NCBI RefSeq assembly: GCF_030818695.1
Contig: NZ_JAUTAR010000001.1
Location: 3,466,501-3,530,500 of the forward strand
From: Chryseobacterium sp. SORGH_AS_0447
GTDB lineage: Bacteria > Bacteroidota > Bacteroidia > Flavobacteriales > Weeksellaceae
DNA length: 64,000 nucleotides
Direction: 5' to 3'
In this document: one piece after another, positions 60,152 to 63,667 of the stretch
Position numbering within the stretch: the first letter of the stretch is position 1
How the letters are laid out: each line of letters opens with the position of its first letter
Notes under the pieces: model-generated
The model's database searches: none
Told to the model about the DNA's origin: nothing
Seen by the model: only the letters and a program-made list of their open reading frames with translations
Made by a program: the position numbers and the translations under genes

Positions 60152-60469
60152 TTAGAGAAAGAGCTTTTTCCACTTGGTTACGGTATTGCGGCTCAGTTTA
60201 AAATGTCCTGCCAGCTGGGTGTTGTTCAGCCTGTGCTTTTTTTGGTAGTCCAGAATCTGTAAAATCGTTCTCTTGTCATAGGATTTGAGCTTCTGGTTTT
60301 CCTGGCTTCTTTCCCTGTCCGGCTGCCCTGCAATAAGGGTATTGAGCCGGATAATGTCCAGAAAACCAATTTCGCTTTTGTCCAGAATCCGGCTGCAGAC
60401 CGCTTCTTTGTCGGGATATTTGATCCGGATCATATCTCGGTATATTTTAAGGTAATCAGGCGTTCTCAT
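60152..60469 (-). CDS. Small HTH protein (transposase-OrfA-like HTH), second of a pair
   Basis: 105 residues. A polar N-terminal half (YPDKEAVCSRILDKSEIGFLDIIRLNTLI) is followed by a C-terminal helix-turn-helix at about 70-103 (TILQILDYQKKHRLNNTQLAGHFKLSRNTVTKWKKLF), the type found in OrfA of insertion sequences. There is no catalytic domain and no IS ends around it, so it is better read as a DNA-binding regulator than a transposase. It overlaps the preceding HTH gene by 14 bases and is followed by the 59818 gene with a 1-base gap. Confidence 0.7.
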   Translation of the reverse strand: MRTPDYLKIYRDMIRIKYPDKEAVCSRILDKSEIGFLDIIRLNTLIAGQPDRERSQENQKLKSYDKRTILQILDYQKKHRLNNTQLAGHFKLSRNTVTKWKKLFL

Positions 60470-60911
60470 ATTCGTTCGGGTTTGCGGTCGTTTCTTTGGT
60501 GATCCATTTGTAAAGCGTTGTTTTGGGAATACGGTATTCGCGGATGATTTCCGCCTTTGTTTTTACTCCTTTATGCAGCAGGTCCATCATAAAATCAATG
60601 ATTTCCTTGGTGTAGATGTTCTTGCGGAATACAGGAAGCTGGGATTTCTTTTCCGTTTCCTTATTGTGCTGATTCATGCTGCCGGGCGGGGCATAAAGGA
60701 TCAGATGCTGGGTATAGAGCCTGAAAAAATCGTACTCAAGAAGTTTGCTCCACCGCAGGAGATGGTTGGTGGAAAGGTCATGAGATCGGTACATGATGTT
60801 CACCTGGTCTTCATTGCATTTCATAAAGTTGCAGATGCGGGAGATTTCGATCCCGCTTTCTGCTGCTTTTTTTTCAATGAGGCTTCCGATATGGATGTTT
60901 TTGAAATTCAT
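60456..60911 (-). CDS. HTH protein with two DNA-binding regions, first of a pair
   Basis: 151 residues. The N-terminal part (about 5-60: IGSLIEKKAAESGIEISRICNFMKCNEDQVNIMYRS, then LLRWSKLLEYDFFRLYTQHLILYAPP) looks like a Cro/C1-type HTH domain. The C-terminal part (about 100-140: EIIDFMMDLLHKGVKTKAEIIREYRIPKTTLYKWITK) is a transposase-like HTH. No nuclease or integrase residues. It lies 73 bases downstream of the surface-protein gene in the same direction and overlaps the next HTH gene by 14 bases, so it should be expressed only when the invertible promoter faces this way, unless it has its own promoter. Confidence 0.7.
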   Translation of the reverse strand: MNFKNIHIGSLIEKKAAESGIEISRICNFMKCNEDQVNIMYRSHDLSTNHLLRWSKLLEYDFFRLYTQHLILYAPPGSMNQHNKETEKKSQLPVFRKNIYTKEIIDFMMDLLHKGVKTKAEIIREYRIPKTTLYKWITKETTANPNEYENA

Positions 60912-60984: not shown

Positions 60985-62079
60985 TCAGTTTACCGGTAAT
61001 CCATACATTTGGTTTTCTCCTGCATTACCTCCAAACTTGTAGATATCTCCTGTGTACCCGTTATTATCTACATCTCCGGCCCAGTAATAATAGGTTTTAG
61101 CATTGGATGATGTATTATTGATAGTTACAGTACCTGAAACAAGTGCATATTTTGCGGATGGGCACCATGATCCACTCATTAATGTTGACCCTACAATATC
61201 AGGCGATGTAGAAAATGATGTTGAGCTGTCAGAAAAAGAACTCCTCAACCAGATAGCCTGCCCGGTTGGCATAGCATTGTTATTAGCAGCTGTCATTAAT
61301 TGAGTCGTATTAATAAGATATTTGCTGTTTGCAGGCAAAGTAATGTAAGTTCCGGTATAATTGAAATTTCCCCAATTGGAACTGGTAAGCGTAACCCCAG
61401 ATGTGGAAAGAGTGGCAAGAATAACAGGTGCAGAAGCCGTAGGCAGGGCCTGTTTCCTGATTACCCCGTCATTATCTGCGGTAAGCATAACCGTCCCTCC
61501 TGATGAAGGAATAGTACGCAGCCGGGCAGTGCCGCTCACATCCAACTGCTGTGTTGGAGAGGAGGTGCCAATACCAATTCTGCTATTGTCTGCATCTACA
61601 CTTAGGGTATTGCTGCCAAAGTTAATCGCATCCACACCAGAACCGGTAAATGTCAGTTTATTATTAGCTGATATACCCGAGATAGATGTGGTCTTGGTTA
61701 TAGCTCCACCCAGTTGAATGTTATTGCCAGTTTTGGTAAGACCATTGTTAGCCGTCGCAGCAGCTATTCTCTGCCAAATGTTTCCATCAAAATAATAGTA
61801 GCCTTCCTCCGTGATAGCGGCTGTTTTGGTACTGGCTGAACCGACAGCAGCAGTAGCATAGATGACCGTACTTTTCTGATCGGAGGTGTACTGCAAATCG
61901 GCAGATTTAATCTGATCTCCCGTAAGACGCGGAATGATAATTCCCTCTGGTTTACTACCGTCTGTTGTTTTTGCCGTAATGTCTAAAGTGGCTTTAGGAC
62001 TTTGGTTGTTGATACCCACCTGGGAATACATCACCGCTGAAAATAAGAGTAAAGCTGCGGCAGATAAGTGTTTTTCCAT
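60985..62079 (-). CDS. Secreted surface protein with tail-fibre-like repeats, under the invertible promoter
   Basis: 364 residues. Signal peptide 1-20 (LLLFSAVMYSQ). The NNQSPKATLDITAKTTDGSKPEGIIIPRLTGDQI start (about 23-56) and YYYFDGNIWQRI (about 102-113) are common in Bacteroidota cell-surface proteins; the middle has GIGTSSPTQQLDVSGTARLRTIPSSGGTVMLTADNDGVI (about 167-207), the stalk or head-linker pattern shared with phage tail-fibre-like proteins. A beta-rich C-terminal domain (about 225-364) has no recognised family and no T9SS sorting motif. The start is 69 bases from the left inverted repeat of the switch. Likely surface antigen or adhesin; in this orientation it has no visible promoter. 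Confidence 0.8.
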   Translation of the reverse strand: MEKHLSAAALLLFSAVMYSQVGINNQSPKATLDITAKTTDGSKPEGIIIPRLTGDQIKSADLQYTSDQKSTVIYATAAVGSASTKTAAITEEGYYYFDGNIWQRIAAATANNGLTKTGNNIQLGGAITKTTSISGISANNKLTFTGSGVDAINFGSNTLSVDADNSRIGIGTSSPTQQLDVSGTARLRTIPSSGGTVMLTADNDGVIRKQALPTASAPVILATLSTSGVTLTSSNWGNFNYTGTYITLPANSKYLINTTQLMTAANNNAMPTGQAIWLRSSFSDSSTSFSTSPDIVGSTLMSGSWCPSAKYALVSGTVTINNTSSNAKTYYYWAGDVDNNGYTGDIYKFGGNAGENQMYGLPVN

Positions 62080-62147: not shown

Positions 62148-62172
62148 ATATTAGTCTTTCATAGACTAATGT
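62148..62172 (+). repeat. Left inverted repeat (recombination site) of the switch
   Basis: The core is ATTAGTC-TTTCATA-GACTAAT: 7-bp palindromic arms around an asymmetric 7-bp spacer, extended by AT and GT at the ends. Its reverse complement equals 62366-62390. Confidence 0.9.
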
Positions 62173-62333
62173 GAATTTTATTGATCTTTAAATGAATATT
62201 TTACAAAAAAAACTTTCTTACAAAATACATAACACTGACCCTACGTGAACACTTCTTATTATTTATATTTTCACCTATTTTATTTAACATAATATTGCAA
62301 TTGATTAAAATGCAATATTTTACATATATATAT

Positions 62334-62363
62334 TTGAACATTAAAAATTAAATATTATCTTTG
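62334..62363 (+). promoter_or_regulatory. Promoter inside the invertible segment, now facing the recombinase gene
   Basis: TTG (62334-62336), 19 bases, TATCTTTG (62356-62363): full consensus. The box ends 2 bases before the right repeat, so transcription would begin inside the repeat. A second box TATATTTG (62329-62336) lacks a spaced TTG. No TAnnTTTG box is found on the other strand of the segment. Confidence 0.75.
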
Positions 62364-62365
62364 CA

Positions 62366-62390
62366 ACATTAGTCTATGAAAGACTAATAT
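62366..62390 (-). repeat. Right inverted repeat (recombination site) of the switch
   Basis: Core ATTAGTC-TATGAAA-GACTAAT; exact inverse of the left repeat over 25 bp, with the spacer in the opposite orientation, as needed for inversion rather than deletion. Confidence 0.9.
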
Positions 62391-62437
62391 TTGAACTAAT
62401 TTTGGGGGAAGTTTTAATCATTTTTAATCTCTCACCT

Positions 62438-63667
62438 ATGACCTTATCATATATTTTATCCCATAAAACTTCTGGTTCTAAACATCAAATCTGTTTTATT
62501 CTTTCTTCGAATATTTTTGAAAAGCCGGTTAAAAAGTTCTGCCTGCCTTTTTTTATTTCTAAAGAAGACTGGGATTTTCAAAAAAATAGACCATTAAGTA
62601 TTTACTGCAAACCATACAAAAAACTTAACACTATTTTGAATGCTATTAAAGTCAAAATCGCTGAAGTTATCGCAGAAAATCCTCATGTTTCTATAAAAGC
62701 CATTTCGGCAGTGATCAGAAAAACCTTTTCTGATGAAAGTCCGGCATTTGTTGAAGGCTCATTTCTTTCTCTGATGAAAGATTATCTAGAGGATAAAAAA
62801 AAGTTGGTTTGCCTCTCTACCTACCGCCGTTACCAGGTTTTTATGCGGCTGATGGAAAAGTTTGAAGGCTTTCTCTGTCGGCGCATTTTCCCGGAAGAGA
62901 TCGACAGTACCTTTATTGCTGACTTTTACGCATTCGGAAGACAGGAAGAATATACCGAAAGCACCCTCAACCGATCGGCAGAATTCATCAAAACCATCCT
63001 GAATTTCGCCGAAAAAAAGGGAATACGAACCCAGGTGCGGCAACTGGAAATACCTAAATACAGGGAAGTACGAAAAGTAATGATCTTAGAGGAAAAGGAA
63101 ATTAAAAAAATTAAAAAATCGAGGGTTCCCAAAGACTTACAACAGGCCAAAGACTGGCTGATTATCAGCTGCTATACCGGACAGCGCATCTCGGATTTCA
63201 TGAGGTTCAATATCAATCAATTGCTTACCATAGACGGGAAACAATGTATTTCTTTTGTTCAGCAGAAAACAAGGAAAGAGATCGTTTTGCCGCTTCATCC
63301 TGTCGTGCTTAAAATCATGAACCGGTATGGGAATGCTTTTCCTGAACCGCTGGATCAGGGTCTCTACAACGAACAGATTAAAAAGATAGCAGCGCTTTCC
63401 AAAATCGATACTCCTGTAAAGATCAGAAAGAGAGTTGGATTCCGCGGCAAAGAGATGGATGCAGAGAAGTGGCAGAATATTAGCAGCCACATCGGGAGAC
63501 GGAGCTTTGCTTCGAATTTTTACGGTAAAATCCCAACGCCTTTACTCATGCAGGCTACCGGGCACAGCACCGAGCAGATGTTTTTAAACTATATCAATCC
63601 GGTAAACCACGCACGGGTTATCAGCCTGGGAAATTATTTTGAAAAGATCTATGCGGAAGGTGCTTAA
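62438..63667 (+). CDS. Tyrosine recombinase (invertase-type site-specific recombinase)
   Basis: 409 residues from the ATG at 62438; an upstream in-frame TTG at 62402 would add 12 residues and is not favoured. An arm-type DNA-binding region (1-75), a SAM-like core-binding domain (about 108-205) and the catalytic domain (about 215-405) are in the order usual for Bacteroidota integrases of the Tsr type. The catalytic set is complete: Arg250 (TGQRISD), Lys277 (QQKTRKE), His351 and Arg354 (HIGRR), His376 (TGHS) and Tyr385 (FLNYI). It most likely acts on the two repeats 48 bases upstream. No excisionase, att site at a tRNA, or phage genes are nearby. Confidence 0.92.
   Translation: MTLSYILSHKTSGSKHQICFILSSNIFEKPVKKFCLPFFISKEDWDFQKNRPLSIYCKPYKKLNTILNAIKVKIAEVIAENPHVSIKAISAVIRKTFSDESPAFVEGSFLSLMKDYLEDKKKLVCLSTYRRYQVFMRLMEKFEGFLCRRIFPEEIDSTFIADFYAFGRQEEYTESTLNRSAEFIKTILNFAEKKGIRTQVRQLEIPKYREVRKVMILEEKEIKKIKKSRVPKDLQQAKDWLIISCYTGQRISDFMRFNINQLLTIDGKQCISFVQQKTRKEIVLPLHPVVLKIMNRYGNAFPEPLDQGLYNEQIKKIAALSKIDTPVKIRKRVGFRGKEMDAEKWQNISSHIGRRSFASNFYGKIPTPLLMQATGHSTEQMFLNYINPVNHARVISLGNYFEKIYAEGA

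Follow-up and report, generated by a model that had tools for sequence, protein, structure and literature searches.

Invertible promoters are already well known in gut Bacteroides. Tyrosine recombinases also stand beside an invertible surface-product promoter at fimS, with FimB and FimE, and the fim promoter is not known to drive its recombinase from the 5' end. Within the parts of the published account that treat it, Tsr19/BF2766 of Bacteroides fragilis is the nearest known system in behaviour to the locus considered here: this tyrosine recombinase serves local and distant invertible promoters with surface products, and its local promoter is OFF-biased in the wild type, a bias that is gone on plasmid complementation (PMC4747536). 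In the same species, a single serine recombinase, Mpi, serves 13 regions (PMC4747536). A PhaseFinderDC survey of invertons from the gut describes nearby invertases as generally not open to regulation by the inverton promoter, with group 145 as a potential exception (PMC11892184). In Escherichia coli, inversion in the ipuS/IpuA system changes the C-terminus of the recombinase itself, and the ipuS promoter, situated inside the end of ipuA, has been mapped in just one direction, toward ipuR/upaE, in the sections that report it (PMC6083910).

The locus that we describe lies in a 64-kb stretch of Chryseobacterium DNA (the window, by which we mean that whole stretch). It shares with Tsr19 a tyrosine recombinase, a local promoter for a surface product and an OFF bias, while action at a distance, which is described there, is something that we infer here; the Tsr19 promoter, however, lies immediately downstream of its recombinase gene, whereas ours lies upstream and points at the recombinase start (PMC4747536). 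On our reading of the relevant parts of two papers, which is not a formal definition, a Tsr-type recombinase stands outside the promoter that it inverts (PMC4747536, PMC11892184), and this trait is absent here. As far as those accounts describe the Tsr system, the window switch works like a Tsr switch and is wired differently. Like our loci, the surveyed gut invertons (PMC11892184) are invertible promoters of short length with tyrosine recombinases and surface genes nearby, but in ours 58 of the 61 loci that could be called have the promoter directed at the recombinase. Mpi provides a single enzyme for many surface loci, as one of our genomes also suggests, but it belongs to the serine family, and the system here includes a local module that faces its own recombinase (PMC4747536). 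The ipuS/IpuA system likewise places a tyrosine recombinase beside the invertible promoter of a surface product; there the promoter sits in the end of the recombinase gene, whereas here it is upstream and faces the recombinase (PMC6083910). Searches of the open literature that paired invertible promoters or phase variation with Chryseobacterium, Flavobacterium, Flavobacteriia or Weeksellaceae gave no such system among the matches listed. Compared with the familiar gut promoters, the relatives reported here have the opposite wiring, which is conserved and comes with 40 spacer variants.

Parts of the window locus

Two inverted repeats of 25 nt each, at 62148..62172 (+ strand) and 62366..62390 (- strand), are 100% complementary and enclose an interval of 193 nt. 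They form the longest perfect inverted repeat at a spacing of ≤600 bp across the window, and because the longest inverted repeat in 25 dinucleotide shuffles of the window was only 11-16 nt, the observed pair is above chance. The repeats contain the site structure ATTAGTC-TTTCATA-GACTAAT and its inverse, in which a nonpalindromic 7-bp spacer runs in opposite directions in the two copies. The site cores, TAGTC-TTTCATA-GACTA, occupy 62152-62168 and 62370-62386, and this class of site is conserved among relatives. A sequence-only reading of the window had proposed these perfect repeats, had described recombinase-site structure in them and had placed a complete promoter between them, and each of these proposals proved exact.

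The promoter, TTG-N19-TATCTTTG, is located at 62334..62363 on the + strand (TTG at 62334-62336, then 19 nt, then TATCTTTG at 62356-62363), and we take it to be of the Bacteroidota type. It faces the recombinase from inside the putatively invertible segment, the interior between both site cores (62169..62369), which stands in the inverse orientation in four relatives (L095, L113, L112 and G293). The arrangement is that of an inverton, with a promoter between inverted repeats upstream of a gene. A second match to TAnnTTTG, a motif that is common near the site among relatives, begins on the + strand at 62329 and overlaps the TTG, and a motif scan of the segment found none on the opposite strand. 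A degenerate copy of the palindrome ATTGATTTGTAAATCAAT, with three mismatches, lies at 62180..62197 (coordinates by eye; the window locus is L103 in our set), and this palindrome marks the cargo-side end of the segment in many relatives.

To the right, the ATG of a tyrosine recombinase gene (62438..63667, + strand, 409 aa) lies at 62438, 48 bases from the right repeat. Its product matches Pfam Phage_int_SAM_5 (PF13102) and Phage_integrase (PF00589) above cut-off, and the residues R250, K277, H351, R354, H376 and Y385, which we take to be the catalytic R-K-H-R-H-Y set, are invariant across 22 aligned relatives. The window protein has both marks of a tyrosine recombinase, the integrase family and this residue set. 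To the left, the gene for a predicted secreted protein (60985..62079, - strand, 364 aa) has its ATG at 62079, 69 bases from the left repeat; both distances are those given in the sequence-only reading. This protein has a signal-peptide-like start followed by SQVGINNQSPKATLDI and matches no Pfam or NCBIfam family. Solved structures offered no useful relative for it or for the recombinase, and its single-sequence AlphaFold model, with a mean pLDDT of 34, was not used. Farther along the - strand are a 151-aa protein of the MNFKNIHIG family (60456..60911), co-directional with the surface gene and with a sub-threshold helix-turn-helix match, and, at the cassette end, a 105-aa protein (60152..60469) that is helix-turn-helix-like by eye only and has no Pfam match.

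We consider it highly probable that this locus is a phase-variation switch in which the cargo is OFF by default and the recombinase is under the control of the promoter that it flips. The adjacent tyrosine recombinase would cut and rejoin the two TAGTC-N7-GACTA sites, inverting about 200 bp with one promoter. In the present orientation, the promoter would drive the recombinase and the secreted-protein operon would be OFF; after a flip, the promoter would drive the operon, and in this ON state the recombinase would lose its invertible promoter. Comparison among relatives shows a conserved module, inversion in some of its copies, spacers private to each locus and an OFF majority, as far as aligned sequences can speak to these points, and we infer that inversion also occurs in the window strain and is done by the adjacent recombinase.

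Relatives, spacers and orientation

The same 4.37-Mb genome carries two further modules, at C1:3559723-3559962 and C1:3336011-3336237, whose recombinases are 76% and 51-52% identical to that of the window, respectively. In all three modules the promoter points toward the recombinase (cargo OFF), and the strict pair pattern gave no fourth module in this genome. Named relatives come mostly from Chryseobacterium. Searches returned at least 52 matches in 34 of 173 genomes of the genus and, beyond the genus, at least 22 in 14 further genomes (320 genomes of the family were searched); these totals are lower bounds because genomes with many candidates were only partly scored. Our set of 72 loci comprises 49 of the 52 genus matches (including the three of the window genome), 20 of the 22 family matches, and L017, L020 and L023; five matches were left out, four of them partial and the fifth 36% identical.

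In 64 of these 72 loci, the recombinase is preceded by a strict pair of TAGTC-N7-GACTA sites, which in most cases stand about 200 bp from each other. The eight unpaired loci have a single site (L062, L111), end with the contig (L066, L123, L124), carry a base change in one arm (L067, L118) or have differing spacers (L112). At L111, the single site is left between the recombinase and oppositely directed sequence, and the segment seems to have been lost. Upstream of the distant recombinases L021 and L133-L139 (32-42% identical), no site pair was found within 1 kb; the same scan gave no match at L024 and left out L022 and L025. The wiring is conserved across recombinases down to about 45% identity, and a spacing of 6 nt between promoter and site (14 loci) is confined to one well-supported recombinase clade of 16. 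By genome, the strict pair is present in 36 of the 320 in the family, with a count of 0 for a reversed-pattern control. When we compared the lists, the pair was present in 35 of the 48 genomes with the recombinase versus 1 of the 272 without it, and that sole exception, G293, retains a recombinase remnant.

Two Sphingobacterium loci (L017 and L023) have the recombinase, site pair and promoter, and the cargo of L017 includes an AraC-type regulator. The occurrence in Sphingobacterium suggests transfer between families. Taken with the dispersed cassettes (12 in one genome), it also means that the module moves over evolutionary time, as might be expected if the repeats bounded a small mobile element, as its ends or attachment sites, and were no part of a regulatory switch. 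That explanation seems to us very improbable, given a geneless interval of about 200 bp whose promoter keeps a fixed spacing to one of the sites and which is reversed in some relatives. A reading frame in the cargo direction within 35 nt of the site core, found in 21 of 64 loci, also fits a switch rather than an element end. Furthermore, one scan of viral contigs gave no relative, and plasmids yielded nine records whose integrases are just 22-29% identical.

For the comparison of spacers, sites were picked by their arms alone, and two sites were found in 65 loci. Within a locus, the spacers are identical (inverted) in 63 of the 65, with one difference in L092 and two in L112, while between loci they are identical in only 50 of 2080 comparisons, and 40 distinct spacers occur. 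By this comparison, spacers are private to their locus, and the two sites of a locus have the same one. Strand exchange by tyrosine recombinases needs matching spacers. Because the recombinase adjoins its site, the spacers of a locus are identical, and recombinases and site pairs co-occur among genomes, the window recombinase probably inverts the site beside it. For the design of synthetic switches, the relatives offer a natural collection of recombinases and of sites coded by their spacers.

Of the 64 pairs, 57 have TAnnTTTG at a distance of 6-13 nt from one of the sites, and in 35 of those the TTG stands at exactly N19; the strict motif is absent from the other seven (L084, L085, L115, L119, L126, L127 and L128). 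By this motif, 55 promoters point toward the recombinase and two (L095 and L113) toward the surface gene, and by eye three more (L066, L067 and L118) point toward the recombinase and L112 toward the surface gene. The total is 58 versus 3 among 61 callable loci, 11 of the 72 being uncallable, and these counts are not independent because many of the loci are close relatives. A fourth surface-facing case is G293, where the recombinase is broken and its first ~190 residues remain. Both orientations that an inverton should display exist among the relatives. The sequence-only reading had named a fixed orientation in all relatives as evidence that would count against it, and orientation instead varies; its further claim, that the recombinase sits at the switch and shares its promoter, describes a conserved arrangement.

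The clearest flipped copy is L095, whose segment aligns with that of its tree sister L083 at a score of 60 when reversed and 29 forward, and with that of L090 at 65 and 25. This segment lies backwards relative to its nearest relatives; therefore, inversion occurs in nature. Over all comparisons, reversed alignments win over forward ones by 35 versus 25 for L095, 46 versus 15 for L113 and 41 versus 20 for L112, a weak signal in that six loci not called as flipped (L081, L084, L115, L121, L126 and L127) also lean toward reversed. The end-marker palindrome, a motif derived from the same loci on which it was scored, marks the cargo end of 21 of 64 loci at ≤4 mismatches, where shuffles predict 0.7, and the recombinase end of L113 alone; it is less distinct at five mismatches (25 cargo-side versus 13 recombinase-side). 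On the recombinase tree, the surface-facing label needs two changes, of which the well-supported branches force just one.

Decayed copies of the module do exist, namely L112 with mismatched spacers, L062 and L111 with one site, and G293 with its recombinase fragment. The window locus might be such a relic, locked OFF while the module functions in relatives, but its sites, spacer pair, promoter and six catalytic residues are all intact, and we regard this possibility as quite unlikely.

Recombinase supply and the OFF majority

Outside the segment, ahead of the recombinase, lies a putative fixed promoter-like box, TAATTTTG (62397..62404, + strand), of the conserved form TAnnTTnG. Such a box is present 9-16 nt past the recombinase-side site in 57 of the 64 paired loci, in the strict form TAnnTTTG in 24 of them and merely degenerate in the other 33, and by eye it has no TTG at the proper (-33) distance. 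It looks like a second -7 element for the recombinase, in which case the recombination site itself would be the -33 region. Since the box is conserved, the recombinase may have a source of expression besides the invertible promoter. In a scan of 17 further cassettes, the box was absent from every cargo side; on the side that the promoter faces, it was present in the two that adjoin a recombinase (the third of L208, and L209) and in 0 of the 15 that have none. The exception is the second cassette of L210, which also has no recombinase, falls outside that count and has the box as TAAATTCG.

The fixed box invites a simpler explanation, that the segment is an ordinary invertible promoter of a surface operon, that the recombinase is expressed mainly from the box at 62397-62404, and that the promoter faces the recombinase in the OFF state only incidentally. 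Consistent with this notion, the box is absent from the cargo side of all 64 paired loci, and all 17 cassettes without a recombinase (11 in G161, 3 in G204 and 3 in G215) have their promoter directed away from the cargo, so OFF needs no recombinase ahead of the promoter. However, the recombinase ATG lies 28-57 nt past the site in 59 of the 64 paired loci (the other five have no ATG at the usual place), and transcripts from the invertible promoter must thus enter the recombinase directly. The missing -33 TTG and the frequent degeneracy of the box also weigh against it, and on balance we find this explanation rather unlikely.

In 62397-62437 and the same interval of relatives, a dyad often extends from the fixed box as far as the ATG of the recombinase, with letters that covary between loci (for example L116, L089 and L113); it could form an RNA hairpin that covers the start, or serve as an operator. 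Leaders ahead of the recombinase ATG fold with a mean z of -1.33 (n = 59), 29 of them below -1.5, and folding of the window's own transcript start region is unremarkable (z -1.22), which makes the hairpin a minor point.

A promoter that drives its own inversion raises the question of what keeps such a self-driven switch OFF, a feedback question that these loci make testable. In simulations without bias or cost, a naive self-driven toggle was 0.87-1.00 ON at k ≥ 1e-4. We rejected this toggle as a full account because it predicts mostly ON unless switching is very slow or the ON state costly, and the genomes are mostly OFF. Returning to a recombinase that is under the promoter it flips, the start point of that promoter would lie at or in the site, and bound recombinase could repress its own transcription. 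The fixed box may give a basal, orientation-independent supply of recombinase that allows the return from ON to OFF, and ON may be rare because it is costly or because switching is slow. The combination that we favour would be low switching, a cost of the ON state and site-bound recombinase that represses both of its promoters.

Cassettes without a recombinase and their cargo

One genome, G161, has 12 site pairs and one recombinase of the switch-linked kind; it also encodes a complete 441-aa recombinase, 35% identical, whose 6.5-kb locus contains no site, and a partial match at 29%. Eleven of its 12 cassettes have no adjoining recombinase. By the site in these stands a signal-peptide-like protein of 182-199 aa (the L178 frame is shorter), followed by a QVGIN-type protein in 8 of the 11, while the other three are at or near a contig end. 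In L198, L202 and L204, an unrelated-looking gene lies 133-481 nt ahead in the direction of the promoter, so that OFF is to be read with respect to the cargo. The two spacers of each pair are the same, and two spacers recur in G161. Because G161 has 12 cassettes and one recombinase of that kind, it suggests that this recombinase may act in trans on many cassettes. The window genome, with three modules and three recombinases, is unlike this one-enzyme-many-sites layout. Elsewhere, the switches that meet a contig end (the third of L208, L209 and the first of L210) run into, and face, a recombinase start. By eye, the spacer appears reversed relative to promoter and cargo in four of the 12 G161 loci L170 and L176-L186 (L179, L180, L181 and L184).

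It is possible, and we propose it tentatively, that these loci form a self-gated, OFF-default family in which the site serves as operator of two recombinase promoters and a master recombinase acts in trans on a whole array of surface cassettes; the second complete, more distant recombinase of G161 makes this slightly less probable. The invertible promoter would start at the site and the fixed promoter would use the site as its -33 region, while matching within pairs and mostly cassette-specific spacers would limit cross-recombination. If this is true, cassettes could flip independently under one enzyme, and the state of that enzyme's own switch would set the flipping rate across the array.

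Relatives of the window secreted protein occur in 24 of the 64 paired loci, and 39 have a protein with a QVGIN-like start. The label of surface protein given by the sequence-only reading stands as a prediction, resting on signal-peptide-like N-termini and on the Pfam matches of nine hand-picked cargo proteins from relatives, among which two have an L-type lectin domain and two GEVED (one protein has both), one is the Sphingobacterium AraC-type regulator and five have no Pfam family. Such loci suggest that secreted proteins of Chryseobacterium and related bacteria may be phase-variable. Homologues of the 151-aa and 105-aa proteins are found in 41 and 39 of the 64 paired loci, respectively, and in L058-L060 no surface gene intervenes between the switch and the MNFKNIHIG protein, which is the first frame of ≥80 aa there. 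We considered the 151-aa protein as a component exclusive to the switch, an idea weakened because four of its nine matches in the window genome (one of the nine a short fragment) sit far from all three switches.

Tandem arrays occur at L208, L120, L210 and L211 (in G204 and G215), with two or three units of switch and surface gene, all OFF. Their spacers match within a unit and differ within an array, and the flanks of units without a recombinase resemble a recombinase leader, as if the recombinase had been lost.
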